A program made the translations under genes and the position numbers. Of a DNA stretch of 64,000 bases, positions 8,674 to 56,379 are shown piece by piece (position 1 is the first letter of the stretch; each line of letters begins with the position of its first letter). Source of the DNA: Deuterostichococcus epilithicus (taxonomy: Eukaryota; Chlorophyta; Trebouxiophyceae; Prasiolales; Stichococcaceae); the NCBI GenBank assembly GCA_033439295.1, contig JAVTLE010000007.1, positions 186,001 through 250,000 on the forward strand, read 5' to 3'. The notes beneath the pieces are model-generated. The model saw only the letters and a program-made list of their open reading frames with translations, ran no database searches and was not told where the DNA came from.

Positions 8674-11600
8674 GCGCGGCGGAGGAGGCACAGGCGCGCC
8701 CAGTGTTCCCCTTCACTGCGATCGTGGGGCAGGAGCAGATGAAGCTGGCGCTCATGCTCAACATCATCGACCCCAAGATCGGCGGCGTCATGGTCATGGG
8801 CGACCGCGGCACTGGCAAGTCGACCACCGTGCGCGCGCTCACCGATTTGCTGCCCGAGATCCAGGTGCGGGGCTGTCATGTTGGCATGGCTGACGTTTCC
8901 GCTCCTCCGCGCTGTGAGGAGCAGGAACCCTGGCGAGTCCAACGACGGCAGCGCCTTGCACCGCGGGGCTGCGGCGCCTCGACTGCACGCAGTGCAGCAT
9001 GCTTGTCGGGACTCATAAGTGGGGCGGCGATGCTGGAGAGCCCCCGCGCTGCCAGCAGGACCCGTTCGCCGTCAGCGCCTCTGGCCGAGGCATGCATGCC
9101 GCAGTGCGGGAGTGCAGCGCTTGTTTGGGTATTTCAGGGTCCAGGCTCTGGGCTTTTAAACCTGGGCTCCTAACCGAGTGGCAGACCCTGCGCCTTGATG
9201 AGGTGCATCTTCCGCTGCCGCCGCAGGTGGTGGTGGGCGACCCCTTCAACAGCGACCCCAACGACCCGGAGGTCATGAGCGAGGACGTGCGCAACCGCCT
9301 CGCCGCCGGCGAGCAGCTGCCGGTGCGTGCTGATTGTGGCGGCCCGCCCTCTTTTCCTGGATGTTCGCTGGTGCCGCACAGGCGCAGCCTTCGGCTGCAC
9401 AAGGGCGGCGAGCTGCACCAGCTGCTGTCGGTGCAGCTGTTGGCGCAGCAACTCACCCTGCAGTGTGGTGGAAGCTGCTCGTCAACAAGCCGCGGCTGAC
9501 GCCCCTGGCGTGCCCCGCGGCGGCGCAGACGCGGGCGGCGCGCATCAACATGGTGGACCTGCCGCTGGGCGCCACGGAGGACCGCGTGTGCGGCACCATT
9601 GACATCGAGAAGGCGCTCACGGAGGGCGTCAAGGCCTTCGAGCCCGGCCTGCTGGTGCGCGCCCGTTCGCCGTTCCGGAGCCCGCCAAGCTTTTCGATGC
9701 TGCTCCGCACCTTCTCGCAGATTGATTCAACATGTGGAATTGAAAAGGCTCCATCCCCAGCCACGAGGCTGTTGAGCTGCAGCCACCAGCAGGGGGATGT
9801 GGTTGCCGTTGTGCGGCTGAACTGCGGGGAGGGTCGCGGCGCATCCGCTGACGGCTGTGCTGTGCAGCAGAGAAGGGACCTTGCGGCTGTGCGGCCGCTG
9901 CGCTGGAAAATGCCGAAGTGCTGGCGCGGTGGGGCGAGCCGCCGCTCAGTCTATACGTAAACATTTTAATGCTGGCCATCCGCGGTCAAAGCGCCTCTTC
10001 TGTCGTGGCCGTCCCGGGCTGCCGCCTCCTTTCCCTGTACTGCGCGCAGGCAACAGCCGCCGTGGCATCCTGTGCGAGGACGAGGTCGATGTTTTGCCGG
10101 ACCTTATTCCTGGCAGCGCTCGCCGCACCCTGGCCTCACGATGCACACATCTCTCAGCCCCTATCAGCTGACCCGCCGCTCCTGCCCTGCCGTGCCTGCA
10201 GGCCAAGGCCAACCGCGGCATCCTGTATGTGGACGAGGTCAACCTCCTGGACGACCACCTGGTGGATGTGCTGCTGGACTCTGCCGCCTCTGGCTGGAAC
10301 ACCGTGGAGCGGGAGGGCATCTCCATCTCCCACCCAGCCCGCTTCATCCTCGTTGGCTCCGGTGGGTTTTTGGGGGTTTTGTGGGGCTTCGGCCGAAGCA
10401 CTCCTGGCCAGGGACGCAGCAGGGACGAGCGGTGCCCGGTGCTCAGATGGCGCAGTGCTTGCCTGGGCTGCCCGCGGCGCCGCGGGCTGTCCCCAAGGGG
10501 AATGGAAGCGGCGTTGCAGTTACTTCACGCTTTTTGCTGAGCGTGCGTGCGTGCTCGCTCAGGTTTTCTGGAGAGATCTCGTACCAGAGTCCAGCCGCAT
10601 GTTGTGAACCTCCTCACCTTCGTGAGCTGATTTACCATGTGAGCCCGCCTGCGCTTGATCCAGGCAGCTGCGCTCACTGCTCTGCATCACCAACATTTGA
10701 AACAGTGTCCAGAGCTGAACCCAGCACAGAGCTGCGCGTACTGCCGGGGGGCTGGAGGGAGGAAGTTGGAGCTTTTGACAGGGCGCCAACATGGGGGCGG
10801 TACCATCTTTTCAGAAGCTGAATGGCGTCCACGTAGAAAAGGCTGCGGGCAAGAGTGTTGCGGCTGCAGCGGCTCGGCAGGCCATGCCGGCTGCGAGGCG
10901 TTGCTCAGGCGCAGCAGCATGCGCCGATCCTGTGCTGGGCCAGCCAGATTCCAGCGGAGGCCCCTGCGCTGCCGCCGCGCAGGCAGTCTGGGGGCGGGTG
11001 GGCGGGCGGCGGCCGCAGCCTCTGAACAGCGACATGCCAATGCGGGCTGACAGCCGCCCCGGAAGCATCCGTGAACCCCTGCCGCTGCGCAGGCACCCTG
11101 GAGGAGGGCGAGCCGTGGCTGCAGCTTCTCGACAGCGATCTGCGGCAAGATCAGAAAATCACAATTGACTCAAGAGAGATTCTACTGCCGACGCACCAGG
11201 CAACGCGGAGGAGGGCGAGCTGTGGCTGCAGCTTTTGAACTGCGATCTGCGGCAATGCAGCCCAACCTGAAAGCTTGACCTCTGAAATCATGACTGAAGT
11301 GCGACTCCACTGCCGCCGCGCAGGCAACCCGGAGGAGGGCGAGCTGCGGCCGCAGCTGCTGGACCGCTTCGGCATGCACGCGGAGATCCGCACCGTCAAG
11401 GACCCCACCCTGCGGGTGCAGATCGTGGAGCAGCGCGCCGACTTCGACACCAACCCCACCGCCTTCCGCTCCTCCTACGGCGACAAGCAGAAGCAGCTGA
11501 CCGACAAGATCATCGCCGCCCGCGCGCTGCTCAAGGACGTGAGGATTCTGCGCCCCTGCCCCCCTCCTGTCGTTCCCCTCCTGCGTACTTGGCCAGCCGG

Positions 11601-17914: not shown

Positions 17915-20900
17915 ATGGACCCCATCACAATGACTTTGATTCAGGAGTTTAGTCTTGGCGGGGCGATCGGCTGCCTGTGCAAGACGCTGCTTACAATCCA
18001 CCACCTTCTGGTGAAGGCGCCGCAGGAACGGGAGCGCAACCACACCGTCGCGACGGAGCTGGTTCGGCTGGTGAACTTCCTGTTTGCAAAAGTCACAGAC
18101 ATCAGGCAGCGCACCGCCTACAGGACGCCAGCCGCGGCCGACGCCCTGGGTGAGACAGTGCTCTGCTGGACCTCGTATGCCGGTATCATGGACCTGAGAC
18201 TCGCAGCTGCTCCTGAAGTCGCGTGGCATGTGTCAGCGTGCAGTTGTGCGGAGCGGAATGCCGTCCGTTGTCCTGGCACAGTCTGCGTCCCGACTGCAAC
18301 AACGGCCATGAAAATTATTTAAACTCGAAACTTGGATGCAGCCTACGTGGAGAGCAAGGTGCAGGAGCAGGATGCCATCCTGCAGGAGGCGCTGGTGGAT
18401 CGCAAATTCTGGCGGCGCTGGAACACGGCACAGTCCATGCAGACGCTCAAGGACGCGCACACGGAGCTGTGCCGGGCGTTTGCCCTCGGCCTGCTGACCG
18501 CCACTGCCGAGGTGCGGCTGGCTGCGGCAGCGCCTCGCCTTTGCACCAGACCAGTCCATGCGCCCACCCTGGCCGCGTGCAGGACGGCGCACTGGCAGGC
18601 AGCGCCCTCCAGCAATCTAAGTCGCACCTCTGCGCTGGTGCCCAGCCGCTGCGTGTGCCCCGCAGCTAGCGGTGGAGGGGCTGCAGCTGCAGGACAAGTA
18701 CGCGGCGCAGCACAGCCGGGAGAACGTGCACATCCTCGCGCACGTGGCGCGGCTGGAGGACATGACCACGGCCGACGCGCACGCCTCGCGGCAGGAGGCC
18801 GCCAACACCGTGGAGCTGCTGCAACAGCTGAAGCAGCGGCTGGACACCATCGGGCCGTCCGTCGCCACCGCGCGTGCCGCCGTCAGCGAGCAGCTGGACC
18901 AGGGGGCGCCCACCTCCGAGGAGGAGATCAAGATCATCCACCAGGCGCGTCGAAGTCTGCGGGATCGCTGTCTTCTGGAACAGCACGCAGAGTGGGGGTG
19001 ACAGCTCGGCGGCGGCCTCGCACTGCATGCAGCAAGGTGGCAGAGGCAGCGATCGCCGGTGGGTCATTGCGAGTATCATTGCCCGCTGTGCCGCCTGGCG
19101 CTCTGCCAGCCCAGAGTGTGCTCGAGGGAGTCGAGCTGCCACCTGCACCTCCATGCCACTCAACCAGAGCAACTTGACATCGCCACCCCATATCAGCCTG
19201 CGCTGAGGCCGGGCGTGTGTGGCTGCACAACCGCAGCTGGTCGAGCAGCTGCATTCCGTCAAGGACGCCACGCTACTGGACCCGGTCTCCATGGACCTCA
19301 TGATCGACCCGGTGCGCCGCCCTGGCAGCACCCAGCAGCGTTCCAACTGATACCCGTCTCACATCAGCTTCGCCGTCTGTCTCGTGCGGCTGGAGCACAC
19401 GCAGCTCAACGCCTTGAGCGCGCCTTGCAACCTCCTACCGGTGGCGCTTGACGAGGAGGGTCTTGCCTGGCTGCGGCAGGCCGTCAGAGACCGCATCTGC
19501 TGGGGCCCTGTGCGGAATCACCATGCGTCCACGAATGGCACTTGGGCGGGGACCAAGGAATGTGTCGCTTCTCTCAGGTGTTCTGAGGTGTGCCGCTTCT
19601 CACAGGTGTTCTGCTCGAATGGGCGGACGCACTGCCGGTGGACAGCGTTCAAGATCATCGACCACCAGGCCAACATGCCGGGCTGCGCCAATGACGAGTT
19701 CAAGGCACGCCCAGCTCTCACCTGCTGCTTCAGGCTGCCAGCTGCACCGGACCAGAAGCGTGCTGCAAGTCAGACCTGCTGTTCTCAAAGCCGCCGGCGC
19801 TTCAGGAGCCGCTGGCTGACTTCGCACCTGCCAAGGCGGGGTTATGGCTTGCCCCGAGCTGTGGAATCATGGACCCTCGCAACTTCAACTTCAACTTCTA
19901 AAACGCGGCACAGTCCTGCCGTTCACGCACTGCCAAAACACCATGCGGCGTCCGGCAGGGATAATGGTGTGGGTCTCCGCACCCATACGCGCGGGTCCTC
20001 CTCACACCGACTCGTTTCTGCCCGGCCCAGGTGTTGCACGACAACCAGGCAGTCAAGGAGCTGCTATTCAGGGATCACCCCGCGCAGGAGGCCGAGTGTC
20101 GCTCGCGTCGGGCCGCCTTCCTGGACGGCATCGACAAGCTGCTGGCCGGCGGGCAGCTGCCAGCCGCGCAAGTGCACCTGGAACGCGCCCTGCAGGCGCG
20201 TCTCGTCCATCATGTCAGCCCTGCAGGCGCCAGGGAATGCACTGCGCCCAATGCTGCGTCCCTGAAGTGAAGACAGCTTGGTCGATTGGGCACGGAAGCT
20301 GTTGTGGAGACACAAATGTCTGGAGCTGAGCCGCCATTGCCGGTGAGCAGCTCCTGAGGAAGCGCCCATCTGCAGTCATGTGCTCGCAGTCTCAGCGGTT
20401 GCATGGCAAGAAGCTCGAACCTCTGGCACCGTTCGAACTGCTTTAGCAACCTCCAGCACGAGAGGCAGTCTACTTTCTGTTCCTGCTGTTCCGGCCTCCG
20501 TCTTTCATCACGTGAAGCACTGACAGTAGACTGTTCCCCGCCGCAGTGGGTACCCAAAGGCAGCCAGCAGCGGCGTGACATGGAGAGCACCCTCGCCAGC
20601 GTCAACACGCAGCTGCCCGCCGCCCAGGCGGGGCAGCAGTACACGCCCGTCAAGCGGCTGAGTGCTTCAACCGCCTTCAGCCCAGCCGGCAGCTCCACCG
20701 GCAGCGGCGCCGGGCGCGAGGCATCCACGGGCGGCGAACGGGACACGCCACCTGCATCGCCGTCAGGCCTTGCAATGCCACCGTCCCCAGCGATGCCCGT
20801 AATCATGGCGGAGGCGGTGCCAAAGCCGCCGCTTTCGCCCATCAACGTGGGGACCGACTCGCCTGCGGCCTGCGGCGGCGACGCGGGGCGCAGCAACAGC

Positions 20901-34224: not shown

Positions 34225-37200
34225 TCACTCCTCAATGGCGACGGGGCGGCCACAGCAGCACAGCTGGCGGAACAGCCGCCGCAGGCACGATTCTGGCGCG
34301 CGGCTGCCGCCCTCGCTGGCACCCCGCGAGTCGGCAGGCAGCCCGGCCGCAGAGCTACCGGCCGCTTCGTTTGTGCTGAGACCTGACGACTGCACAGCAG
34401 GCTTGGTCCCTGAACGTGCAGCTGCCGGTGCCGGCGCGCAATATCCCCATGCGGCATAACCACCACTACCACCGCCACCGCTGGCGGCAGCGGCCCTGCT
34501 GCTCCATGCCAAATCGCCGTGGCTGCCCCTGGCCACGGAGGTAACTCCCACGCTGGCGTCCGGCACCTTCGCAGGCCCGCTCCTCGAGCGCACAGCTGCC
34601 GGCGCCGCCAACCAGGACTTCCACTCCGCACCGCTGCCGCCGCCGCCAGCGGTCCTGCTGCTGCGCGCTGAATGGCCGGGGCTGCCACTGCTGCCGCCGC
34701 TGGGCAGCGGCTGCAGAACTGCGGCAGCGGCATGGCTGCGCTCGTGGGACACAAGCCCGCCTGTGCGGGACACCGCGCTTCAGTGTTGTGCCTGCCATCT
34801 CGTAGATTCGCATTATGATTCTCTGGTTTCGGAACCCTATAAGCCAACTTGACATGTTCCTTCAGGGGCGAAGTACTGGCGCATTTTCTTGGACGCGCAC
34901 ACAGCTGGCTCACGCCGCAACCACTGGGGATTCGGAGCGCTCACCTGGGCCGATGGGCGTCTGCAGGCGTTCGCGAGGATCGAAACCATCTTGTAGCGCG
35001 TCCATCTCGGCCGCTGTCTGTGGCTCGGGGCGGCGCCCGGCAAAGCCGGCGCCCGACGGCAGCTCCGACCAGGGCATTGGGCTGCCATAGCACTCGTCCA
35101 GCCCCATCTCGAGCGCTGCCTGCATGAGGAGGTGGTCGAACTCTTCGCCGCCGGCCGGCGGCCGCTCTTGCCGCGGCAGCGCTGCTGCCGGCGATTGCGC
35201 CGCTGCCGGCGCCGCCGTGTGCATGGGCTGGGCGATCCAAATGGCGCCGGTGCTTTGGTCCCACAGCTGCGAATCGGTCGCCGGCTGCTGCTCTGCCGCT
35301 GGCTGCGCCCAGGCACCCCAGACAGCTTCGCCAATGCCCAACACGGCGGCGCTCCCGGGAGCGGCGCCGCTGCCGCCTGCGCTGTGGCCGCCCAAGTCCT
35401 GGGGCGCATCCCAGCTGCCACTGCAGGCCGTGGAGCCTGCTGCGCCGCTGTCGCTGGCGAGCGGTGGCGGCGGGCTTGGCAGCCGCAGCAGATCGGCCAA
35501 GGAGCCCTCTGCCCACGGGTGCTGGTCGACCGCTTGCACGGTTGCTGCAAACGGCAGGAAAGCAGGAAAGTTTCTGAGGCCTCATCATCCAGTGGCTGCA
35601 TTTCGCATGTGCAGGAACCAGGAACCCGCCAGCCAGGCGAATCCGTCATCCATCTGAAGTAGCACTGCTGCATTCAGGGTTTTGAAGCTGCGCAGCCGTG
35701 CATGGGGTCTGCAGCCGCTAGTGGCCCTCAACTGGCAGCAAGCAGACCATGCGCAACGCAGCAGCCCGAGACGTGCCGCACCTGGCTGCTGGTCGGTCGA
35801 TGGCGACGTAGAGTCGATAGCCGCCGCAGCTGGCGGCGACCGTCGTGGACGCTTGGCGCGCGGCGCTGACGCCGCCCGCCCGCCACTGCTCGCACCGCCT
35901 CCGCCGCCGCGGTCATGCCACAGCGGGCCCCGCGACCTCGGCGGCCGCGGCGCCGCTGGCCGCATCTCCGCGGCCCAGCGCAGCGTCGTTGCATTTGCGA
36001 AGCACCAGCTGCGCTGCATGCAATCGCCGGGCAGCCCGCACCGCTCCCGCAGCCCCGCCGTCAGCCAGCTGCCTGCGTGGAAGCGCCAGCGCGGCTGTGG
36101 GTGGATGAAGTGGCAGGCATACAGCCGCGCCACTCACATAGACGTTGCAGCAACAGGGCTTGCAGACGAGAGTGTCGCAAAGTTTCCCGATAACGTTCCC
36201 TGCCGCGTGCAAAAGCCTGCGAGCATGCCCACAGCAACCATGCTGGACGTTGCAGGCGCCCGCTAGCAGGCCACATCTGGCATGAAACCGCCGCTGTACC
36301 TGGGTCGGGTGTCCCCGTTAGCATGGCCAGGTCTGGCCACGCCTGCTGCAGGTGCTTCCTGCCCTCCAGCTCTGCTGCCTCGAACCAGACGCTGGTGGCC
36401 GCGCCTGTTGCTGCCTGTGTTTTTGGGTTTAGGGTTCACCCTAAGAGCACACGCAGCACTGCAACATGCAGGCGGTTGCAGGGGCATTGAAAATTACTTT
36501 TCCGGGTGGCGAGGGTGACTTCCTGTTGCGCGGTGCAGATGCAGATCAGAAAAACGAGGTTTGGCAGAGCTGCCGCACTGAGGAGGTCACCTGCTGCCTC
36601 TGTTGCGCCACCTCCTCCGCCGTGCGCCCTCTCTGCAGCGCAGCACACATATTCTAGCCATTTTCTGGGCTTTTTTCATTTTGGCGACTCGCACAGGAAG
36701 AAGCGACACTCCACAGCCTGTACCCAGCTGCCTACACAGCAAGCTGTGCACCCGCATGCAGCTGAGGGCTGCTGTTCCTGCAGGCTCATGTGGCTACAGG
36801 GGCGCTGGCGAGAGCCAGGCGGCACGAAACAAGTCTGTCCTGACATGCCTGCAGTCGCCCTGCTGGCATGACTCGATGCTGCGCACGGAGCGGCAGCTGT
36901 GAAGCCGGTAGAGCCAGCAGCGGCGGTAGCCGGACGGCAGCATGCGCACCAGTGCCAGCTTGGCGAGCATGCTGGCGTAGCGCTTGGTGGTAGCGCGCGA
37001 CACCTCCTCCCACTTCTCTGCGGAAGGCAGCCCGTCGCAGCTGTCCAGCAACATGCACGCCTGTAACCATCCATCAACCAAAGGTGGCGGATTCAAAGCC
37101 GGCAGGGGTGCCAGCATTGTGGGAGTTGTGTCAGGCATCACAGTTTGGACCTCAAGCTAGGAGCAGATGGCTGATGTCAGATAGTTGTGTTGCGGGGGGA

Positions 37201-39033
37201 ACATGTGCGCCCGGCTGCTGCCGGGTGGCAGCGACGCAGCAGCACGCCGTCAGTCCCGCTGAGCAGGGGGGCCACCGCTGCTTGAGTGATTGCTCGGCGC
37301 CTCATCAACAGTGACCCATACTTTGGTCGGGATCCACGGGCGGCAGCCAAGCCCCAGGGGCGCATCCACGGCGGTAGGCATGAGGGCGCCCAATACCACG
37401 AGCTTTCGAGCGCAGGATGAAAGGAAGCACCTGGGTCACGAGCGTCTGATCTGCGAGTTCCTGCTGCCAGGTGCTCATGTCGTACAGGCTGACGAGCGCG
37501 TCATCCTGCGCAACACAACTGCGTATTGAAACTGAACAACTGCACATGGTTCCATTCCATCTGGCGTTTGTTCCCTGCTCTGATTGTCTCACACACGCCT
37601 TTAAATGTCTCCAGCAACGAGCTGCGTGTGCAGTGTTGGTGGCTGCGCTGGCGCCTGAAGGGCGGTCGTCTGATCAATACAGTCGGCTGCAGCGACCCGC
37701 AACCTGCGACAGGAACAATGCACACGTGCAAAGGACTGTGCAAGAGCTGTGGAGGGTATCATGCGATACCCTATGCATGATCCATAGGGTTTATGGCAGG
37801 TGGCGCACCTCCTCCGCGGCCGGCTCCCGGGCCGATCTGGTTGCTCTCGGCACCAGCTGCCCGTACGCGTCCAAGTGGAGGCCTCTCGCCAAACGGTGGC
37901 CCTCGCTGAAGCTGGGCAGCAGCGGGCATCCTGCGCCAGCAGCACGGGCGGCCTCGAGCTGGTGCTGGTCGTTGCAGCGCCGCTGGCCCGCAGCGTCAAT
38001 CACCGCCGGCGTCGTGGTTCGATCGCGACTGCACCTACTTGCGGCAACGAAACAATATGCTATGGGATGCTATGGGCTATGGGATACCGCATGGGTGAAG
38101 GAGGTGTGCTTCCACCCGGAACGCACCAGAGGCCGCCAGCTCCACGATCTTGGCGGTTGGCGACGCCAGCCGGCGGGTGTCCACCGCCACAAGGCGGCGG
38201 CGGCACAGCCAGGAGGCGCCGCTGGTGCCGCAGCGGCCACGCTTCCAGACGACGCAGCCGAAGCAGCGCCGGAACTGCCGCACGCCGCTCTCACCGCTGT
38301 GCCATCCGTACATGTCCATGTGCAGCGCCCAGTACAGCTCCCTGCAACACGAGGGTGAAGCTGAGAGTCACCTTGCATCCTTGGCCTCACGGCACAGGCG
38401 GGCCGCAATGGGCTGCTGAGCAAACGAGCGCAAGACATCAACTCAATAGCATTTTCTTCCGGTCTTGACGTTCATCCGCAAACTCGATTTGACACCTTCG
38501 AAGTCAGGTATGACCTCGCGCCGAGATCCTGTGGCACCACCAGCAGCGCCTCCTCGGCATGCACGCAGTCACAGGATGGCAGCAGTCAAATCGCACCTGT
38601 GGGAGAAGCCGCACCGGGCAACCGCCTCCAGAGCCGCATCAGACCTGTCAGCCAGCAGCGCGGCGGCCGCCGCCAGGCAGCCCCAGTCCAAGTGTTGCGC
38701 CTGCAGGCCCTTGCGCGTCGCTACCGCCAGCGCCAGTTGCAAGGTGCACACCGCATCCTCGAGGTTCAGGTGTGTAGCCTGGAATGCATGGGCAAAGCAC
38801 GCTGGCAGGAGCGCTTGGCAGCGGCCAGGTGGCTGCAGCTGCTGTGCCTTCTGTAGCTGAACGGCTACCCCACGACACATGCGCCTGGTGATACCTCAGA
38901 GCAGCAGCGATATGTAAAGTCAGCATGCACGCGCCTGCGCCCCCAGCAAGTGGTGCCGCACGATACTTGCGTCCGCATCCAGCAGCTGCGGCAGCACGAC
39001 GTTGTGCAGGATCTGCGCACAGGCAAAGCTCAT
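34225..39033 (-). CDS. Unrecognised minus-strand gene or genes, multi-exon
   Basis: Several protein-like exons lie on the minus strand, but I recognise no family. From the 5' end: an ATG at 39033 opens MSFACAQILHNVVLPQLLDA (to about 38938); about 38595-38770 has NLEDAVCTLQLALAVATRKG and ALEAVARCGFSHR; about 38095-38340 has YWALHMDMYGWHSGE and VRQFRRCFGCVVWKRG; about 37800-37990 follows; about 37430-37530 has ADQTLVTQVLPFI; about 36850-37070 has ACMLLDSCDGLPSAEKWEEV; about 35970-36140 has RLYACHFIHPQPRWRFHAGS; 34910-35539 is acidic, Ala/Gln/Pro-rich and probably disordered; and 34225-34560 ends LRRLFRQLCCCGRPVAIEE and a stop. The Cys-rich tail could be lipid-modified. Whether this is one gene or two cannot be decided here. 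Confidence 0.4.
34600..34712 (-). repeat. Decayed copy of the last exon of the unrecognised gene
   Basis: Read on the minus strand it gives GSPGHSARSSRTAGGGGSG, against GSHGDLAWSSRAAAASGGGG in the exon at about 34445-34545. The copy lies upstream in transcript order, as in CHLI and TOP3. Low-complexity composition lowers certainty, but the match extends through non-repetitive bases on both sides. Confidence 0.6.
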
Positions 39034-41927: not shown

Positions 41928-42241
41928 ACCTGCAGTTTCAAGAGGGATTGCTGTGCGCCATCAAGACATGCACGGCATGAAACGCATCAAAGCCCTTGCA
42001 CCTTGACTACGTGTATGTCCAGCAAGAGTATGCTCGCTTGTGCGTTGGTTGTATGTAGCTGTGTAGCTAGACCCTGCCGGATCTAGCCGGAGCCTGCAGC
42101 CACCGCAGCAACAAGACCAGCCGTTTGATATGCTGTCATGACCACGTCGGCGAGGGCGACAGTGGCTTTCCGCCGGTGGCATATACGCACTGCTCGGGCG
42201 CTGCCAGCTGCGGCTGTTGTTGTGTGCAGAGTCAGCCGGCA

Positions 42242-42991: not shown

Positions 42992-45129
42992 ATGATCCGC
43001 TCCGTATTCCTAACGCTTGCAGTAGGTTTCGCTGCTGCAAGCTGCGCCGTGGGGGCTGCAGCTGCCGCTAAGCCCACTGATCAAGCACTTCAGCCTCAAG
43101 TGGAAGGTGAGTCTGCGTGCATTGCTGCAATATACTGCTGCTGACACCCCCGCTTTGGTGCAGGCTGTCTGCGCTCCCGACCCTCAACTCAGCATCAGCA
43201 TTGGAAATTGTAGACGACTACATACAGACGGGATCAGCATGCTCCCTGCAGGATCCCTGCAGGGCAGCCGACATCTGCTGGCGCACAGGTGCCAATACTT
43301 CAATGTCTTGGCCAAGGCACATCGCCACGCATGTCGGAGCCCAACGCCGTTCAGTGCATTGCAATCGTACGATTCGAAACTCATAGCACTCTAGCCCATG
43401 CTGACCCCTTTAATGAACTTTCAGACCCACAGTCAAGCCAACGAAAGCGCCGACTACCGCTCCTACCGCAGCGCCCACTCTGCGTCCTACCTTTGCACCA
43501 ACCAATGACCCAGGTGAGCAACATTTGGGTAAGCAGATGTCAAGAAGCGAGGACCTTCAAGACAAGACTCCTGCAAATGGCTGCTAGAGACAACCATTCT
43601 TGCCGATTTTCGCTGCAAGTCGCTGCCAGTAGAAAGAGGGTGCATCGGTCGGGCGGATGGTCACTCTGCACTTGCCATCTGCAAACGTCTGCTGAAACCG
43701 CCGCTGTGTTCGGTTGTGCAAATGAGACACCAAGAATCGTCTCAACCATGTATACACACATATCATCTCTGACGAGTGCCGGTGCGCCTACTTCCTATGC
43801 ACGTCTTAGTATCGTTTTCCTTAGATCTGACTGGGACACCCTAATGTTCCGTCGCAGACACCTGCGGCACCGGCCCGGGAGGTCAGCTTACGCTGACGTT
43901 CAACGACGCTACCACCACAGCCTTCCCACCAGCCATGCCGGCAGGGTATGGCTACCCCACCCTGCAGTGGAGCGGCGCATACTTGGCGTCAACCGCTGAT
44001 GGCGGCAAACAGCTCGTTAACACGGTGCTGTGGGACTCTTACCCTATGCAGCTCAGCGTGAGCTGTGGCTCATTCGACCTCACCTCCTTCAAGATGTCGG
44101 CCGGTACGTTCTTCATCTTTGAAACCGCGGCATGACTAACTCCACGCCCAATTGGATGGTACGCGGCTAGAGTACGCGCCGTCACCAGCAGATGTGCTAA
44201 GATTTTGACAGTCCGGTGTCACACAGACGAGCTCTCCGGACCCACCGGCGCCGGTGCCGGCACATCCCTGGGTACTCTGCGGCACTTCGACAACATCACC
44301 CTGATCGTCACGCGCGGTGAGAGCCGCCACATCGTCGATCACATTGCTATCTTGGCGCTTTTCTAATATTTTTGGTGCTGTTCTTCATGCAAACTGGCAT
44401 ATCATATGTGGCTTTCTGGAGAGCCGGGACTTGGTCCTGCCCGTCTTTCGACCCCTGCTGCCCAGGCCATATGTAAAGTTTACGTGCCTCACCCAGGCGG
44501 CGTGGACACTCTTGCTGCGACCTACCCAGTGAACAATGCGACACAGCCTCAGCGGCTCTTCACACTGCCAGCTGGCGTGGGCGCTGGTATCACCGCTGCC
44601 AGATGGGCCGCAAACCCCCTCGAGGTTCCAGCGCCGCCGAACGGCGGATGGTTCAATCCCGACACCCCCAACTACATCTACTTGGTGAGGCAGCAATTGT
44701 GGACCACTCTGCTGCCGTCTGCCAGACGGCTCCAAACAGGACTGGGGATCCGCAGCCCATGTATCGGTTTAGCATGTCTGCCTACGAACTGTCAATGTGC
44801 AGGCTGCGCTGAAGGGTTGGCAGCTGTCATCCCTTGTTCTGTCCTTCTTTGGCAGCCTGGAAGAAATGTTTACCAAACGCGTCCGGCCCAAATGAGGGTA
44901 GCGTCACTGATGGTGGCTTCATGGGGTTTATTATTGACTGATACCAAGTCTCACAGTGTGTGTTGGCCGACCAGTATGTACCTCGTGAGCAACCCTTCTC
45001 TATATGTGGCGGCAGGATGACGTGACGCTGTACGTGCGGCCGACTGCGCTGCCGCCGCCGACTCCTGCGCCAACTCCTGTGCCGACGCCTGCGCCACAGT
45101 GCATGTGCCCATGCGCCTGTGGCACTTAG
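42992..45129 (+). CDS. Secreted PT-rich protein with jelly-roll-like domain, copy A
   Basis: Six exons (42992-43106, 43433-43513, 43858-44103, 44227-44316, 44497-44684, 45016-45129) join exactly in phase to 277 residues. The protein starts with a signal peptide (MIRSVFLTLAVGFAAASCA), followed by a linker of PT repeats (KPTKAPTTAPTAAPTLRPT). The main domain is rich in Gly, Thr and aromatic residues (GGQLTLTFNDA, QWSGAYLASTADGG, FDNITLIVTRG) and ends NYIYLDDVTLYVRP. Such an F/Y-x-D-D-V-T-L ending is common in beta-sandwich surface or carbohydrate-binding domains. The tail has PTPAPTPVPTPAPQ and a Cys cluster CMCPCACGT. A cell-wall or extracellular role is inferred; no named family is recognised. 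The acceptor of exon 2 must be the second CACAG, since the first breaks phase. An AATAAA lies about 155 bp after the stop. Confidence 0.8.
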
Positions 45130-47559: not shown

Positions 47560-50500
47560 TCACCCGAATGACCGGATTAAGCCGCCATGTGGTTGCAGCG
47601 GGTGGCGTTGTATATGTGCTGATACAGGGAGAACTGCATCACACATACGCAGGAAAGTCACAGCGTCTGACCTGCCGCCTTGATTGCCGCCTCGCGCGCG
47701 GCCACGGGCGCCGCCGCCGCCCTGCCGCCTGCCTCCACCGCCGCCGCCGCGCTGTCCGCCGCTGCGGCCAGCACCCCCGCCGCGGCCGGCAGCACCCCTG
47801 CCNCGGCCTCCGGCCACCCGGCCGCCGCCTCGATTGCCGGCCGGCTGGCGCAGCGGCGCGCCGCCGCCCGTGGGGCGTGCCGCNGGGCCCCGACCCGGGC
47901 CCCGCCCGCCCTGCTGCCCCTGCTGCCCGCCTGCGCGAGACGCAACTCTGTCTCGGCCACCAGCGGGCAGCGGCAGACGAGCGCTGCTACTGTTGCCCCC
48001 CACCCCCCCGGGCTAGCGGTGTTCATCAGAGGGAAGTGCAGCGGCCCGTTGCCTCCGGCGGCGCACGCACGCTGCTTCATTCCCGCTCGACACCCCAAAC
48101 ACCTCCTCGGCAGCAGGGGCACGGCCGCGCAGGTGCCCGCCCACCACATCCTGGCCCCTCAGATGCGGGATAGTCAAGCAGCAGGTTCACCTGGGGCGGC
48201 GCGCAGTGGCAGGCTCGGCAGTCGCGCGGCGCCGCAGGCGTCCAGCAGCCGGCGTACGCGTTGGTCGCACAGCGGGCACCCAGTGAAGGCGGGCTCCACG
48301 TCGGCTGGGATGCGCGGCCGCCGGAAGCGGAACGCCAGCTGCCTGCAGGCGGCAAGAAGCAGCCCGTCACGCCAGCGATTCCACGCATCGAGTAGCCTGC
48401 CGACTCTTGCTTTCGCCTCCATGTGTGGAGCAATGCAGCCTTTCGGATTACCTGCCGCTCAGCATCGCATCAGCGGAGGCACTTCCCAAGGTGTGACCTC
48501 TGCCGCTGTTGTGCAGACGAGCCCAAACTCTCGAGTTTGCTGTCCCGGAATTACGAAGGCGTGCAGCTGCCCAAACCGCGATGATCTCGTTGCCAATGAG
48601 CCGACCGCAGCCGCCTGGCGCTGCTGCAGCGGGGGAACCCGCGCCACGCAGCTTGTCTGGAGGAAGGTCTCCGATGGTCTCGGCCTAACATGTCAGGTGC
48701 CCTCTTTGCACCCCACCTGATGTTGCCGGCGCAGGAGGCGCAGCGCTGGTCAGTCGGCACGGCGTCCGCCAGCGCCGCAGGGAACACCACGCGCCTGTCA
48801 CACAATGGGTGGGCGCCGCAGGCCACCAGGAAGGCCTCCCCCGCCTTGCGCAGCGCCAGCCGCCCGCCGCACATCGCGCACCCGCCTGGAATTGTGTGTC
48901 AACGGTTCTCCATGTCAGGCAGGTTGGCGACAGGGCTGGCGGGCAGTAATTGCAACCTAGCCACCAGGAGAGTCCCCCCCACCCGCGCACAGCGCCAGCT
49001 GCCCGCCGCATGCCGTGCAGTGGCCTGTGATCGTGTTCGGACACATTTTGAGGTCGGGCAAGTGAGATGGCATGGCTGACCTGGGTGGCGGTGCAAGAAG
49101 CAGGCCTCGCCCGCCTTTGCGCAGAGCCAGGTGCCCGCCTCACGCCGCGCAATTGCTTGCGGGTTGCGGTGCATGAAGGATCATGTCTAGGTCACACGAG
49201 GCGAACTGTGGCAGGCTGGCTACCTGGAAATGAGAGTAGCGCCGCCTGCGTTGCCTGCATACCACGGCGCAAGCACCCGCAGGAAACCACGCGGTCGCAC
49301 GGTGATCTAGCGTCTTCGCGATGCTGTTGAGTTGTTATTGCCCTGGTGCACACCCAGATCAGATCTGGAAGACTGCAATATGCCGCTGCTGCCTGCGGCC
49401 CAGCACAGATGCGCCACCAAAGCGCAGGAGCTGTCCGAGACACATTCACGGCATTGCCGGACCACTTTCCCCGCCTGCTGAACGCTCACCAATATCTGCG
49501 ATGGGCGTGCCGCTGTCGCCGCCGCCCGCGCCTCCGCCGCCACCGGCACGCCCAAAGAAGGCTGCCACCTCCGCCTCCAGGGTCCCCGCTCGGCGCTGCG
49601 CCTCCTGAAAGTCAGCGCGGAAGGCCTGCACCGCCTCCGCCAGCACCGCCTCCTGCGTGTGGACATGCGTAACAGACATCAAGCGCGCGTGAGGCCAGCT
49701 GCGCCTCCTGGGAATCCGCGTGGAAGGCCTGCATGCATCGCCTCCGCCAGCACTGCGGGGAATCTGCATAGCAAACACAGAAGAGCTGCGCCTCCTGAAA
49801 GCCCGTGCGGCATGCCTGCACCGCCTCCGCCAGCACCACCTCCTATGGGAATCGTCAAGACACACTGCGGTGCCCTGAAGGCAGGCCTGCACTTCTGCAG
49901 CACCATCCATTCAGCGGATTCTGCTCTGAGACCGGCAAAGCTGTCTTTCAAGCGGATAGGCAGGACTTGAAGGATGACAAGTGTCAATGAAAGCACACTA
50001 AGGGCACTGCGCCCGGCCTGCAACGCTGTCCCGATTCTGTTGAGCATCTGATGACATGCTGAAAACCCGAGTTCTGGGCCGACAGCCCTGCTCATCTGTG
50101 GCACCTGCAGCAGACTCCTCGATCCCTTCTGCTCGTTGAAAGTAAAATGTATCTTTGTCACTTTGAGATAGGAAGGGAATTGCCACTCGCCTTGGTGCGG
50201 GCGCCGCGTGCAACGGCGGCGATGTTGGCCTCGATCTTGCCGCGCAGGTCGGGCAGCCACAGGTTTGCCAGCCCCATGGCACGGTAGCCGCCCACCAGCG
50301 CCTCCCCCAGCGGCGTCGGCGCGAATGTCATCTGCGCGTCCTTCTCCGCATACCTGCAGCGTGCGATGCGTGTCTTGATGTGTTCATTCGACGCACGCAA
50401 ACTCACGAACAAAACCAATCCGATCAGATCGCACTGAAATGAAACTCTACGTCGATGCAGTCGAAGCACTCACCTGGTCTCCTCACATCTATTCTAGAGG

Positions 50501-53500
50501 AAACCGCCCGTGCGCAGCAGGGCTTGAGACGCACCCGCGGTCGAGCTGCTTCTGGATGTGCTCCGCGACGGTGGCATCGGTGCCGATGCCATAGCGCTCC
50601 ATGGCGGATATGAGCGCCGCCTCCGTCAGCCGCGGCGGCGCTGCAGTCGCGCTCTGCGGCGGCACGGATTGCAGATGTGTAACCTGGTGTTCTCAACTGA
50701 CAACTCGGATTCCCTGGCGCTCCACCGCCAAGATGAGGGCGGCCTCTGTCACAGGCATGGCGGCGGCGCCGAGGCGCGCTGCGGCGCGGGCACCAGCACT
50801 GCATTTGCTTCCGAAGGGTCAGGTGTCCACTCAGCAGGGCCATACAAGGCCCCTGCCAGGTGTCAGGGCTCAGGTCTGTGTCATCAACAATGAACTTGCA
50901 CAGTTTCTTGGGACTGGAGGCACGTAGCAGTCCTCCTGGCTCAGCGCCTGCTGTGACCCAGTGAGCGGTCGGCGCCGAATTTGAGCCTGCATAATAGTGT
51001 TCCTCACCTGGTGCAGCGTCAGGTCGGAGGGCGTGAAGCGCTGGGCCTCGGTGAATACCGGCAGGTTGGCGTTGCCGCCCCAGCTGGTGTATGGGTACAC
51101 CTCCAGCCAGTTGCGCTGCGTCACCATGAGACCTGCAGGGCAGTTGCCAGTGAGGATCAGAGCCTTGGACGAGATGTGCTTGTCAAATTTACAAATTTAC
51201 GATTTACAAATTTACTCGTTTGCCGCCCAATTGGTGTACCGGGTCCCATCCAGCCATGTGCGCTGTCATCATCAACAGGCCCGGCGGCAGCAACACAGCG
51301 AATAGCGGTTCTGTCCTGCCTGGCTCAGCTGGTTTCCTTTTCCGCACAGCTGGTTGCGGCGAGATGCCTTACGGTTTGCATTACATCACCACTGGGTCTT
51401 CGGGAGCAGGCAGGCAATAGACAGGCAATGCGCTGGTCCCCAAGATCTGAATGCCTGTTGCACTATGCAGGTGCGGAAGGACCTGTAATTCTCGAGCGGC
51501 CTGCATTGTCGCCTGTGTTTCAGCATGCTGGCGAGCACCGCGTTGGGCCTACCGTGCTGCTACACCTGCTGCTGCTGATAAGCATGCATGGCGCAGCCAG
51601 CACGATGCCTGGCTGCCGGCTCGCTTTCCTGCACTATGAGCGACTTGCCGGCGGCAGAGGGAGTCCAGCAGCCTACCCGTGGTGAGGAAGACCTCCTCTG
51701 TAATGCCGATGGTGACGGTCGTCTCGAAGCCGATGGCGGGCTGCGAACACGCTCTGCGGTTGGGCAAGGGGGTCGGGCAGTCGCCAATGTAACCAAATCT
51801 TTGAGGCAGGCACCGGACCATCAGCAAGGACAGCTAATTGAGCTGTTTGTATGGTGCATGCCACAGGGCAGTGCAGTGTCTGCATGTGCTGCACCGCGCA
51901 GGGCAGCTGGGAGCAGCATCTGGCTCGGAGGACCTGGTCAGCAGAACGCACGCACCGCCCCGTATGCGACGACCTTCCCTTTGATGCCTCTGCCGTGTAT
52001 GACTGCGGCTGAATGCACCCTGCGAAGGTACAGCAGGGGGAGGCGAGGACGCACGCGAGGAAGGAGCGGACGATGAACTCGTAGAGCGCCGTCTTGTCGC
52101 GTCCCCAGCTAGCCTCGCCGGCGGTGTAGCGCGTTGGGTGGATGGGCGGGTGGGCTTTGTCGTCGTGGCCACCGCCCGGAGGCCGCCGGAACATGGGGCC
52201 CGCCACCATGGCGGTCGCGTGCGCGCCCCACCGGGCGTCGCCCGTCTGCTGCTGCACCATGGCCTGCGGCGGGTTTTGGGAACGGATGCTGTCACAGCCG
52301 CTGTTGAGCAATGGAGGAGGCGAGGCCTCATGAGGTGCTGGCAGCATGCCTGGCTGCCGCCTTTGCGCCTGTGCGAAGCTGCACTCTTGGGCAGCCCTCC
52401 TGATGTCCCTTCCGGTGAGTGAGCGCAGCGATGGAACAATCACACAGACAGCTGCAGTGGCCATAGTGGTCGGCATGGATATGGTTGCGCGGGGGACCAC
52501 TGGAGCAGCTTGAGGCAGCTTCTTCAATTTTTCCATGGGATGAGGGAAACGACAGACTCATGCAGGGCGCCGCACCAGCAGGTCGTAGCCGGCGTCGAAT
52601 TGGTCGGTCTCCGTGCGCGGGTAGGAGATGAAACCCGCCTGGTACAGCTCCTCCGCCAGCTTCATGATGCGCTCACCTATGCGGCAGGAGAATCAGAGAT
52701 AAAATTCGTGGCTGACTTCGCTGAGCAGCGTGTGTCGTGCATCTGGTACAGCTCCTCCACCAGCTAGCCTGTGCAGATTTAGGGAGTTTTTGATGGCACG
52801 TTCAAAAGCATTGTGAGTCTGTCAGCGTCTCTCACGGCTCATCCGCAAGAGCTCCACGATCCCCTCGCCTACGAGCGTGGCGATGCAACCAGGCATCAGC
52901 TTTGAACAGTTCTGGTGTGTCTCGGACAGAGATGAATGAGGCAGCGGACACATCATGCCCAGCGACGACGCTGCTTGCCACCTCGGGGCCAGTCGAGCCT
53001 GCGCATGCACCAACCATGAGACCTGCTCCAACCCCAGCGAGATACATGGTCTGCCTGCTGCCAACCCCTTCCCGATACACGCTCCCGAGGCATCTGCCCG
53101 ATGCGACAGCCCTGCAGCATGCGGCTGTCCATCGCACTCGGCTGTCCACCGCACGCGCTCGCATCCCACTTGTTGAGCTCTGCTTTTCGCTGGAAGCGGC
53201 ACCTGGCAGGCGCAGGACGCGCGTTGCCGTCTTCTGCATGTCCAGCGTCGACAGCGGGTGCGGCGGCCACCGCTTCCGCTCCTGCCCCTCCACCTGCGCG
53301 CAGGCGTGACAAGTGTTGGGGCAACGAATCTTGCACAGGTGGGCAGCCGCTGCTTGGACAGGGGGTCCCTGCCACTCACAAGGCTGCGTCCCAGTCTGCT
53401 GTGCGCAGATGCTGACTGCACGTCAACGTGCTCTGCCCCACTTCCAGAATCAGGAGACTTCCATTTGATGGCAAAATGAGCGTCCTCGTCGAATGGACTC

Positions 53501-56379
53501 CTGTTGCAGCGAGGCGCACAGAGTGCCGCAGGCTGCCCCGCTCATGACCTCAGCGCCAACAGCTCCTGCATGCAATGCGCTGCGGCTCGGGCTGCCTCGA
53601 CTCATGGCAGCCCGCGGCCCCGGCTCGGCTGCCCACCTTCAGCACCGTGGCCGTCGGCTGTGCCACGCAGGGTTCGTACAGCATGACCGCCGCCGCATGG
53701 TCGAACAGCCGGCCGCGCGCCCATCTGCGCGTTACAGGGGGTGCTCCCTGAGCCCGGCACTCCCGACGCATAGCATGCTGTCCTCCTGGCGTCGCTCATA
53801 TCCATACATGGTTTGCTTGCTCTGCTGTCACTCCGTTCCAGGAGGTGTCTGCAAGGAAGCGTTGAATGCTGCTGCAGGGCCAGCAGTGTGAGGCAAGGGT
53901 GCAGGCGTTCTCGGTGAATTGCCGTGTAGCAGCTCCAGCAGCCTGGGGGGCTCACCGAAACTCGCAGGACTTGCCACCAGCCTCCCTGTAGCCCACCTTG
54001 ATCTCCCAACAGTCCTCTGGCACGAAGCTCTGAATCTCCCTGCGGCCGATGGGTTCGATGGTCTAAACACGCCATAGTGACCAGTCAAAGGTGGGAGAGA
54101 TGGTTGTTACTGCATTGCACTCCTGCTGCAGGTATGGGTAGGTTAGTATGCCACACACTCGTGCATCGCGAGAGCGGGGCACGGTACAGGTCGCAGGTGC
54201 GCTCAGGCAGGCACATGCCAATACCGCCGCAGGGAAGCTGCATTTGTTGCCGGCAAGATTTTATTACTGACTGCGCACCAAGCACGCTGTACGATGAGGC
54301 CCAGGGTTGGGAATTGGCAGGGGCCGTAGCTGATGAGCGGCTTGTCGTCAATGCCACCGCCCGCCCAGTCAAACTTGCTCTGCGGCCAGGGCACTTTAAC
54401 GCTCGCATCAGATTCCTTTGCCGGCGTCTGGGAGTGTGCTTGATCGCTGTGTTGAGACCGTGCAAACATACGCAGATTAGTCCCAACCATGTTGCCATTG
54501 TCCAGGCAATGCCATGCACTCGGGTACTGCAGGTTTCGATCCTGCTGCAATGCATCGATCTGCTAAAGCCTCGATCCAGCGGCAGCTCAGCGGCGCACCT
54601 GCAGCAGCAGCGTCTGGTAGCGGGTGAAGGCAGCTCCAATGCGCAGGTCTATCTCCTGCCGCGCATCCACCGCCCGTGACGCATCCTCGTCCGGCGCCAC
54701 CTGCAGGCGTGGCAGGGGCATACACTTGACCGATCAACAGAAATCGTGGTGCTGAACGGACAGAGCGCAGGTTGATCTCCTGCCGCACGTCCACCGCCCG
54801 GGACACATCCTCATCAGGTGCCGCCTGCATGTGCAGCAGGCATGTGCAGTGGAGCCAGTAGAGGAGAGAAGAAAAACCCGAGAGAGAACAGCTCCAGGAG
54901 TTGCCCTGCCGTGCATCCATTCGCCGCTGCCAAGTGTTCTCATTCGGCGCCATCTGTGACGATGGCTCTCAAGAACACGTGTAATGAGGTCCCGGGGAAA
55001 AAGGAGGATTGCGTCCCCACTGTACGTCCGCCACAACTAAGGCATACTCGTCCAGCGCCACCTGTCAGCAGAATCTAAAAAGCTTTCAGGAAAGTCTGGC
55101 AGGATGCAGGTGTACATAGATTCCCTGCGGCGCATGTACCGCCCTGCACTCGTCCTCTCCCAATCACACTTACTGGCATGGAAGGAGAGCGCAAATCCCA
55201 GAGGAGAAGTAGTTAGTATTACATTCTTACTATTAATATATTGCTTGTAAGCCAATAGTGCTCAAGGCATCAGATGTGCTCCAGTACCCATACATGACAG
55301 CACAACCATCAGCACCAATGCGCTCCCGCAGATGAGCGGAAAGCGCCAGCGCCAGTGCTCACAAGGTTGCCGATGGCGCGCGTCAGATCCGCGAAGATGA
55401 GCGCCGAGAAGCGTGCGCGCTTGATCGTCAGCCGCGGGTTAGCGCGTCGGCACACTTCGATGACCTGCGCATAGATGCTCACACCCTGGACTCTGCCCGA
55501 TGAGCTTCGAGCTTGTGGCTTGCCTGGCGGCTGCGCAGCACCCGTTCACGACCTGCATGTGGAACCTGCCCTGCCGGCTGCGCGGCACCAGCGGTCGCTG
55601 CTCCACACATGCACTCCCGCCACCGCTCCCCCGCTCCCCCACAGGCATGACGTGCTGCGTCATAAAACACGTCCGCACACAGGGGCAGACGAGAGGACAC
55701 GGGCCTGCCCGTCGTTGCGGTGCCAACGGCCCCACCTCGAAGCTGATGTTCTCGCCCTCCCGATCGCAGTCCAGCCACAGCACCAGCCACTGGCACCGCC
55801 GCGCCTCAGTCTCCAGGTTGCGCCGCAGCGCCGCCTTGTCCTGTGTCAATAACCAGACAGACAATCTACCACACGGTTGGTGGATCCCTCAAAGCGTGCA
55901 GATCGCAGGCAGCGGGGCTCCAGTCCCGATGATTTTGAGCCTGACCGCTCCTCAGCAAACGGCCTGACGCGGCATGGGCGCCGCAAGTGGCGCGGCGTGG
56001 TCCCACCTGCGGCACGGCTTTCACGACGGGCGCGGAGAAGAGCTCCACCGGGCTGCAGGAGCGCCAGCCCTTGTGGCTGGCGGGAAAGTCTAGCTCCATG
56101 AGGTGGCCGGCCACCGAGGTAAACGCCATGGCACAGTGATTGCCCTGCATCGTGTAGTCGAACTCGTAGACGCCATTATACTGTGCCCTGCGGAATGCGA
56201 TGCAAAACATTCGGCTTTCAGCCTTGACATCGCGGAAAGACCCGCATCGGTGTCACGCAGATTGCTGCAGAAGGGATGGCTCACGCTGTGGATCGGTAAC
56301 GGGCGCCGTTGTTGCTGAGGATCCTGGACACCTCCTTGGCGACGCTGGGCTTTTCTGCCACATTCAGGACGTGAAGCAT
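47560..56379 (-). CDS. TOP3A: DNA topoisomerase III (type IA), TOP3-alpha-like
   Basis: A type IA topoisomerase that, with RecQ helicase and RMI1, dissolves recombination intermediates in the nucleus. About twenty exons are on the minus strand. The ATG at 56379 opens [20 protein letters not shown], which carries the first TOPRIM Glu. Later exons give [18 protein letters not shown] (TOPRIM DxDxE, 55736-55840); [18 protein letters not shown] (54599-54700); [13 protein letters not shown] (54279-54379); [26 protein letters not shown] (53203-53293); [14 protein letters not shown] with the catalytic Tyr (52576-52676); [15 protein letters not shown] (52051-52263); FETTVTIGI (51677-51740); [18 protein letters not shown] (51008-51132); [20 protein letters not shown] (50535-50653); and [12 protein letters not shown] (to 50353). 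The C-terminus has a coiled-coil-like exon (49490-49652), CxxC zinc-finger exons (about 48716-48891 and 48190-48342) and an RGG-rich tail with two ambiguous bases (47803, 47884). Many introns carry decayed copies of the next exon. Confidence 0.92.
48940..49162 (-). repeat. Two decayed copies of the TOP3 zinc-finger exon
   Basis: The intact exon (48716-48891) reads [19 protein letters not shown]. At 48940-49022 the minus strand reads [17 protein letters not shown]. At 49076-49162 it reads NCAA, a stop, then [15 protein letters not shown]. Both copies are upstream in transcript order. The stop and the lost Cys residues show they are not functional alternatives. Confidence 0.85.
49695..49846 (-). 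repeat. Two decayed copies of the TOP3 coiled-coil exon
   Basis: The intact exon (49490-49652) begins [19 protein letters not shown]. At 49784-49846 the minus strand reads [19 protein letters not shown], and at 49695-49757 a frameshifted version keeps [13 protein letters not shown]. The three copies stand in tandem within about 350 bp, with the intact one last in transcript order. Confidence 0.9.
50705..50790 (-). repeat. Decayed copy of the TOP3 [16 protein letters not shown] exon
   Basis: The minus strand reads [19 protein letters not shown] and then stops, against [19 protein letters not shown] in the intact exon at 50535-50653. It lies upstream of it in the same intron. Confidence 0.88.
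51217..51282 (-). repeat. Decayed copy of the TOP3 YPYTSWGGN exon
   Basis: The minus strand reads [19 protein letters not shown], against [19 protein letters not shown] in the intact exon (51008-51132). It lies about 85 bp upstream. The copy is followed by an AT-rich tract with repeated AAATTTAC at 51186-51216. Confidence 0.8.
52730..52768 (-). repeat. Decayed copy of the start of the TOP3 active-site exon
   Basis: The minus strand reads a stop codon and then [13 protein letters not shown], against [19 protein letters not shown] in the intact exon (52576-52676). The copy stops resembling the exon before the catalytic Tyr. Confidence 0.85.
54772..54824 (-). repeat. Decayed copy of the TOP3 RQEIDLR exon, copy 1
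   Basis: After a minus-strand ACATGCAG acceptor it reads [20 protein letters not shown], against [20 protein letters not shown] in the intact exon (54599-54700). It lies about 75 bp upstream and is the best-preserved echo in the window. The second half of the exon ([11 protein letters not shown]) is absent, so splicing it in would not give a complete domain. Confidence 0.92.
54906..54952 (-). repeat. Decayed copy of the TOP3 RQEIDLR exon, copy 2
   Basis: The minus strand reads [18 protein letters not shown], recognisably related to [17 protein letters not shown]. It is further upstream and more diverged than copy 1. Confidence 0.75.
55021..55061 (-). repeat. Decayed copy of the TOP3 RQEIDLR exon, copy 3
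   Basis: After a minus-strand CTGACAG acceptor it reads [15 protein letters not shown], a distant version of [15 protein letters not shown]. The spacing of the copies (about 55,060; 54,950; 54,824; intact at 54,700) is close to 120 bp throughout, which suggests stepwise tandem duplication. Confidence 0.65.

Follow-up and report, generated by a model that had tools for sequence, protein, structure and literature searches.

Decayed copies of exon ends in introns of the green alga Deuterostichococcus epilithicus occur on both sides of exons

In the green alga Deuterostichococcus epilithicus (Trebouxiophyceae), introns of unrelated genes contain decayed copies of the ends of the exons that border them. 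Such copies are present in a stretch of 64,000 nucleotides, called the window (assembly GCA_033439295.1, contig JAVTLE010000007.1, positions 186,001 to 250,000; here C6:186001-250000 of a 46.8-Mb assembly in 21 contigs), where they are found in CHLI, an intron-rich magnesium chelatase gene, in TOP3, a topoisomerase gene, and in an unnamed predicted gene. Within the whole sample of 428 introns in 63 genes, 37 introns from 15 genes carry such copies, on C6 and at loci from C1, C3, C14 and C19. The copies are best read, with about an even chance of this being correct, as fossils of recurrent short local duplications of a repeat-spacer-repeat kind that captured exon ends. This reading is supported by the existence of the copies, their excess over chance, their adjacency to the source exon on the same strand, their occurrence on both sides of exons, their arrays with a steady step and their decay with a broken frame.

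The DNA sampled comprises the window, the adjoining 200 kb, six further 10-kb stretches and three loci reached by search. Positions marked C6big run through the window and then C6:250001-450000, with C6big position 1 being window position 1. A self-trained hidden Markov model served as gene finder and called 65 genes with 465 introns, 428 of at least 90 nt; these 428 introns, in 63 ab initio gene models on six contigs, form the main sample. The G+C content is 60%, and the splice consensus learnt by the gene finder is MAG/GTGCG at donors and YGCAG/G at acceptors (the slash marks the junction). In-frame runs of exons shorter than 24 nt were stripped from the models, and introns below 90 nt and exons below 40 nt were left out of the comparison of introns with exons. 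For significance, the alignment of each flanking exon (40 nt or longer) with the intron interior was compared with those of 200 dinucleotide shuffles. A complexity filter was too harsh for G+C-rich exons and lost real copies, and the counts were made without it. Recognised Pfam families reached the cutoff in nine of ten submitted proteins, namely class I tRNA synthetase, topoisomerase with Toprim (TOP3), importin-beta N-terminal, XAP5, MutS, thioredoxin/phosducin, ubiquitin E1, aspartyl protease and mitochondrial carrier, and the tenth had only a GAF match below the Pfam threshold.

The rate of copies lies far above that of shuffled introns, a comparison proposed in the initial annotation of the window, and also above those of swapped exons, non-adjacent exons and reverse complements. 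At p<1e-3, the upstream exon has a copy in 12 of 401 tests and the downstream exon in 27 of 394, whereas non-adjacent exons reach this level in 4 of 2,173 tests (1, 0, 1 and 0 for exons -4 to -1 in 1,076 tests; 1, 1, 0 and 0 for exons +2 to +5 in 1,097). Inverted copies of adjacent exons are barely present at the same threshold (1/401 and 2/394), and by a raw score of at least 18, they number 2 and 4 against 0.6 and 0.6. When exons are swapped between genes, 0.0 and 0.2 matches per set score at least 20, compared with 15 and 26 for the real pairs. From the adjacency, reverse-complement and swap controls, it follows that the copies derive from the neighbouring exon on the same strand. At a larger scale, local direct similarities (within 1.5 kb, score at least 17) number 184 in 264 kb, compared with 11 at an offset of 60 kb and 14 at 100 kb. 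In these 264 kb of C6, inverted local similarities of score at least 17 are likewise in excess (65 against 10 and 12) and hardly lie at exon ends.

The copies lie on both sides of exons, and the process is not strictly one-sided. The initial annotation had seen copies only 5' of the intact exon and proposed a one-sided process, one that equal frequencies on the two sides would speak against. That impression arose because the window alone gives seven acceptor-side junctions and one donor-side junction (34397-34531). Outside the window, 11 of 31 significant junctions are on the donor side (20:11, p=0.15), including one at L002, the CHLI paralogue locus to which CHLI itself had led, and the total is 27 acceptor-side to 12 donor-side junctions (p=0.024). 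Simulated duplications were detected equally well on one side (876/2,287) and the other (833/2,239), and a slight surplus at acceptors may be real. A further donor-side copy outside the window is C6big 67068-67115. The intron at C6big 255105-255697 holds both an upstream-exon end and a downstream-exon start, about 8-12 nt apart, followed by more copies of the downstream exon.

The copies have a recurring shape. In 33 of 39 junctions, the best alignments span 40-84 columns, and the aligned part is mostly the exon end that faces the intron. Similarity mostly ends within about 8 nt of the splice junction: acceptor-side alignments start from -8 to +4 in 19 of 27 cases, at -10 to -23 in five and inside the exon (+11 to +21) in three. 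The step from one unit to the next has a median of 110 nt and a mean of 115 nt (sd 24) in the 35 of 39 junctions analysed, for which 56 of 61 steps, those of 45-180 nt, were kept and five fell outside the range; for the nearest step, the median is 116 nt over 35 junctions, the introns being about 490 nt long. Arrays hold up to four copies, separated by spacers of about 60-65 nt, neighbouring steps are alike within an array (16 arrays, 22 pairs, P=0.029), and in some arrays, the copies end at one common exon base. Copy-bearing introns are about twice as long as usual (median 492 nt on the acceptor side and 478 nt on the donor side, against 246 nt for all tested), lie nearer the 3' end of genes (relative position 0.621 against 0.504 when permuted within genes, P=0.0012) and cluster in certain genes (P<0.0005). 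Intron length itself also increases toward the gene 3' end (rho 0.22).

Decay has proceeded without respect for the reading frame. Relative to the exon, 17.4% of first, 20.2% of second and 25.1% of third codon positions have changed, and 46 of 50 indels are not multiples of three. Because such indels break the frame, the copies are taken to be dead DNA rather than alternative exons. The exception is TOP3 54789-54824, part of a copy: it is in frame and open, and the gene finder called it a 36-nt mini-exon. Of the 27 acceptor-side spacings, 3 are divisible by three, possibly as a result of in-frame copies, like this one, being absorbed into gene models. Of 27 acceptor-side copies, 16 retain the AG, and of 12 donor-side copies, 3 retain the donor dinucleotide, some of these positions being extrapolated beyond the alignment.

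In the window, 15 decayed copies of eight exons were found (Table 1), two exons in CHLI and six in TOP3, in good agreement with the initial estimate of about thirteen copies of eight exons; the seven CHLI and TOP3 junctions tested have shuffle p values from 2.9e-4 to 1.5e-13. The CHLI product matches magnesium chelatase subunit I (an MMETSP/EukProt protein is 84% identical over 84% of the query), and its exons 10202-10361 and 11324-11538 have one and three upstream copies, respectively. In CHLI, unit and spacer together repeat over 295 nt at a lag of 110 with 68% identity, and two spacers of the array at 11324 match each other (79% over 29 nt). A second CHLI-like gene, at L002 (C19:3929200-3932249), has donor-side copies of its own, such as L002:1788-1868 (at a locus found through CHLI and not at random), and a weaker acceptor-side copy. 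TOP3, whose product has Topoisom_bac and Toprim domains, carries eight copies at the exons beginning at 52676, 51132, 50653, 49652 and 48885, one of which (52834-52871) is weak. Both copies of the exon at 49652 end, by eye, at the identical exon base. The junction at 54700 is absent from the significance count because part of its nearest copy was taken as the in-frame 36-nt exon. This exon is probably false, and two of 15 nt in CHLI are false; gene finders can thus mistake decayed exon copies for mini-exons. The predicted gene with the donor-side copy (34225-39033) is perhaps the gene that the initial annotation left unrecognised. The short junction duplication suggested for a U-box gene is not confirmed, as no significant copy lies in gene model 17915-21734, taken by eye for that gene.

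Table 1. Exons and their decayed copies in the window (positions in the window; strand of the gene)
Feature	Position	Strand	Evidence
CHLI exon, intact source copy	10202..10361	+	gene model, CHLI homology
Acceptor-side decayed copy of exon at 10202, 75% identity, -23 to +39	10026..10087	+	p 2.9e-4
CHLI exon, intact source copy	11324..11538	+	gene model, CHLI homology
Third decayed copy, exon start at 11324, 70%	10964..11061	+	alignment
Second decayed copy, exon start at 11324, 84%	11076..11136	+	p 8.4e-7
Nearest decayed copy, exon start at 11324, 82%; flank resembles exon flank (z 3.8)	11178..11243	+	alignment
TOP3 exon, source copy	54599..54700	-	gene model; Topoisom_bac, Toprim domains
Decayed copy of exon start at 54700, 82% over 76 nt	54765..54840	-	alignment
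Second decayed copy, exon start at 54700, 76% over 38 nt	55027..55064	-	alignment
Third, more decayed copy, exon start at 54700, 68% over 62 nt	55124..55185	-	alignment
TOP3 exon, source copy	52576..52676	-	gene model
Short copy of exon 52676 positions +15 to +38, 96%	52743..52765	-	p 1.5e-5
Weaker copy of exon 52676, 74%, score 16	52834..52871	-	alignment
TOP3 exon, source copy	51008..51132	-	gene model
Decayed copy, exon start at 51132, 73%	51220..51281	-	p 4.7e-6
TOP3 exon, source copy	50535..50653	-	gene model
Decayed copy, exon start at 50653, 72%	50708..50786	-	p 6.5e-8
TOP3 exon, source copy	49490..49652	-	gene model
Nearest decayed copy, exon start at 49652, 81%	49698..49756	-	alignment
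Second copy, exon start at 49652, 90%	49785..49844	-	p 1.5e-13
TOP3 exon, source copy	48717..48885	-	gene model
Nearest decayed copy, exon start at 48885, 75%; likeness extends into about 39 nt of flank	48960..49036	-	p 1.1e-6
Second decayed copy, exon start at 48885, 84%	49102..49151	-	alignment
Exon of unnamed predicted gene, upstream source copy	34567..34710	-	alignment
Donor-side copy, upstream exon end repeated in the following intron, 67%, G+C-rich, least certain	34397..34531	-	p 4.1e-8

In the mechanism proposed, a short local duplication with a step of about 110 nt would straddle the splice junction or capture the exon end together with the splice-site motif. Such events would be made in the DNA by break repair or template switching, as tandem duplications with or without filler. 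The copy joined to the remaining exon would go on being spliced and translated, and the inner copy would stay in the intron and decay like neutral DNA; the intron would therefore lengthen by about 110 nt per event, on either side of the exon. Purifying selection on the protein would decide which copy survives as exon. The initial annotation had offered selection for the distal acceptor, an idea that needs this wider form, in which on either side, the copy joined to the exon presumably stays coding and the inner one dies. Its proposal of a recurrent duplication that lengthens introns is supported by copies in unrelated genes and on several contigs and by the greater length of affected introns, and fails as regards the restriction to acceptors. 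The acceptor-like intron end that it described in the copies is mostly plain splice consensus, and farther into the intron, the sequence mostly shows no relation to what precedes the real exon.

Several candidate sources of the copies and spacers gained no support from the tests made. With an mRNA-like template, joined exon ends would be copied; the upstream-exon end does not precede downstream-exon copies (z -0.07±0.22, 39 tests), nor does the downstream-exon start follow upstream-exon copies (z 0.36±0.56, 16 tests). A search with joined exon ends gave five junction-spanning matches (scores 31, 29, 27, 17 and 16), against one in reversed order and one with random genes, and only the top-scoring one, at C6big 255105-255697, is long on both sides. 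A unit wholly within the exon, with the spacer as exon continuation, gave z values of 0.14±0.15, -0.10 and -0.32 (34 tests each) and, on the donor side, 0.37 and 0.20 (14 each). At the place predicted by such a unit, splice motifs show no clear excess, be it CAG (3/25 against 11%) and AG (9/25 against 23%) or, for donors, GTG (3/12 against 12%) and GT (5/12 against 23%). Spacers show no likeness to the intron 5' end (z -0.18±0.16, 39 tests). Nor is a repeat family supported, given one pair within CHLI and one weak cross pair at E<=0.01; 54 spacers compared with 317 kb gave 13 weak matches at E<=0.05 (best 0.007), and in three of these both sequences belong to the same array or intron. For three intron stretches searched against the whole genome, one of them the 308 bases around TOP3 49785-49844, no source elsewhere was found, the matches being the stretches themselves and their own exon.

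The simplest alternative is that tandem duplications with random breakpoints crossed the junctions and then decayed neutrally, the exon serving as a conserved yardstick and the flank being lost by change on both sides; this is possible rather than probable. Steady steps and arrays suit it, as do noncoding repeats with a similar step in the same DNA. If a tandem duplication crosses the junction, the intron flank must be duplicated too and should be recognisable, even while decaying on both sides. Flank similarity is indeed present in CHLI (11178-11243), the CHLI paralogue, TOP3 (48960-49036) and some others, and several flanks can be aligned by eye with many gaps, which implies that part of the flanks was probably copied. 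The mean flank z is above zero (0.80±0.16 over 58 exon-copy pairs). The following points weigh against this alternative, and most of them also against the favoured reading of short local duplications. By gap-tolerant scoring of 30-nt flanks, z is 0.82 for 39 acceptor-side and 1.02 for 16 donor-side copies (0.87 and 1.20 with 50-nt flanks), roughly a quarter of the 3.1-3.9 simulated for a copied flank (about -0.1 if not copied). Pairs of copies, which are free of the yardstick effect because both members are intronic, have z 3.5 in the exon part and 0.86 in the flank (33 pairs), against 6.0 and 5.3 in simulations. Similarity mostly stops within about 8 nt of the junction, which the favoured reading does not account for. 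Among the 35 acceptor-side copies reaching the junction, the ungapped match is 0.82, 0.70, 0.62 and 0.57 at exon positions 0-2, 3-9, 10-19 and 20-29, and on the intron side, it stays at the unrelated level from -7 outwards (0.29, 0.23 and 0.30 at -10 to -7, -15 to -11 and -25 to -16, against 0.29, 0.30 and 0.31 for unrelated introns); the splice motif alone matches, at -3 to -1 (0.82, unrelated acceptors 0.79) and at -6 to -4 (0.55 against 0.37). The 14 donor-side copies have a similar profile. Tandem simulations that fit the exon side predict flank matches of 0.53-0.61, 0.47-0.56 and 0.41-0.49; greater divergence or heavier indels lower the match just beyond the motif to 0.35-0.44 (0.35-0.42 with heavier indels), but the exon side is then undershot. 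Copies of high identity without flank similarity exist as well, such as TOP3 49785-49844 and C6big 105309-105361 (strict scoring, 36 of 39 junctions). Breakpoints inside introns are not as frequent as those across junctions: 6 introns with internal duplications stand against 45 junction pairs, a ratio of 0.13, in 368 of the 428 introns, nine repeat-cluster gene models and introns with a short flanking exon having been removed. A model of uniform breakpoints gives 0.67 at K 0.25, 0.35 at K 0.3, 0.88 with ages spread evenly and 0.08 at K 0.4; it expects about 16-30 internal duplications at K 0.25-0.3, the divergence that fits the copies, and about 4 at K 0.4, where the observed rarity is matched. 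The aligned length is 0.35 of the step in 39 exon-intron pairs, against 0.71 in 22 noncoding pairs outside predicted genes, a difference that partly reflects faster flank loss. Also to be set against the favoured reading, no copy reached significance in L026 (C9, 19 introns) and L028 (C19, 10 introns), none reached score 18 in the held-out 10-kb C5 stretch L029 (19 introns), and the gene models are ab initio predictions.

The edge at the junction may reflect excess decay of flanks, or copying that is bounded by splicing. In one form of the latter, which appears fairly unlikely, the splicing machinery or the transcript would set the breakpoint of a DNA duplication, so that exon ends and motif are copied about 110 nt into the intron on both sides, more often towards the gene 3' end, and introns would grow by accumulating dead exon ends. 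In another, about equally unlikely, the copying itself would be limited by the junction, through a patch templated by RNA or cDNA or a break where an RNA-DNA hybrid ends, and would take exon sequence and motif only. The sharp edge on both sides, the scarcity of acceptor-side copies starting at +11 or beyond, the 3' bias and gene clustering of affected introns and the almost joined exon ends at C6big 255105-255697 all suit such junction-limited copying. On the other hand, the copies usually carry the intronic CAG, which is absent from a spliced exon, upstream-exon sequence is generally missing before downstream-exon copies, the steady and array-like steps fit DNA repeats, and the 3' bias is shared by intron length. 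Old tandem duplications, with recurrent gene conversion by the exon preserving the likeness of the exon-like part and the flanks drifting, would account for both the flank loss and the rare intron-internal duplicates; given that mismatches do not cluster significantly in tracts (57 copies, mean z 0.14, simulated mean 0.00, p=0.067), this is improbable. A function of the copies as alternative exons or alternative splice sites is more improbable still. The retained AG at acceptors, at about the level of neutral decay, and the mild excess of third-position changes could be cited in favour, but nearly all indels break the frame and the donor dinucleotide is seldom kept. Short local duplication in the DNA is the preferred reading, with the junction edge as the feature that it leaves to be explained.

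Other repeats were observed in passing. In the window, an intergenic cluster of direct and inverted repeats lies at 3142-4061 (about 36-120 nt, about 70-83% alike, with steps of about 58-70 nt and more), and a perfect 32-nt inverted repeat with 56 nt between its arms at 56734-56853. The segments 43446-45095 and 58961-60605 share two tandem-repeat units in the same order, suggesting a duplicated segment about 15.5 kb apart. Farther along C6, tandem units of about 580-585 bp occupy about 338988-342655 and are followed, at 343500-367000, by a mirrored set of predicted proteins that suggests a large inverted repeat.

The fast decay of intron DNA makes it difficult to follow how old introns change in length and where intron sequence originates. 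With exons as fixed points of reference, about one in twelve sampled introns (37/428) shows part of how it grew. Whether duplication breakpoints recognise splice sites can be tested in this genome; a model based purely on DNA does not predict that they do.

Among known systems, introner elements, known from algae, change introns en masse. The spacers of the present alga are hardly alike, and the three intron stretches searched, only these three, are single-copy genome-wide. The tandem duplication of AGGT sites (Rogers) is similar in that locally duplicated exon sequence becomes intron with the protein unchanged. As deduced from that model, downstream-exon-like sequence should lie at the intron 5' end and upstream-exon-like sequence at the 3' end; in the alga, each copy is instead at the intron end next to its own exon, about 110 nt away from it. 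For the potato RdRp gene, passages of Ma et al. 2016 (PMC4974935) describe a boundary-crossing tandem duplication, one recent event that made a new intron. There too, the unit reaches from the intron 3' end into the beginning of the downstream exon, and the exon part of the upstream copy turns intronic; in potato, however, the flank was copied, including a putative branch site and the pyrimidine tract, whereas the alga has dozens of old intronic copies, on both sides and mostly without recognisable flank. New introns of Daphnia, according to passages of PMC4202315, carry direct repeats from staggered double-strand breaks, and a passive trend to longer introns was suggested. The likeness is in the repeat-insert-repeat footprints, with some repeats copying the terminal bases of the adjacent exon, and direct repeats flanking an unrelated insert are found here as well, with spacers lacking a clear source. 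The differences are that exon-sharing repeats in those passages measure 4-12 bp, against mostly 40-84 nt in arrays with a step of about 110 nt in the alga, where housekeeping genes also have copies. No description of two-sided recurrent exon-end copies in introns was found in the literature searched, from which subscription journals were mostly absent. The step of about 110 nt, the frequency, the presence on both sides together and the splice-motif edge go beyond the passages on potato RdRp and Daphnia, and of these, the edge would be the truly new part.

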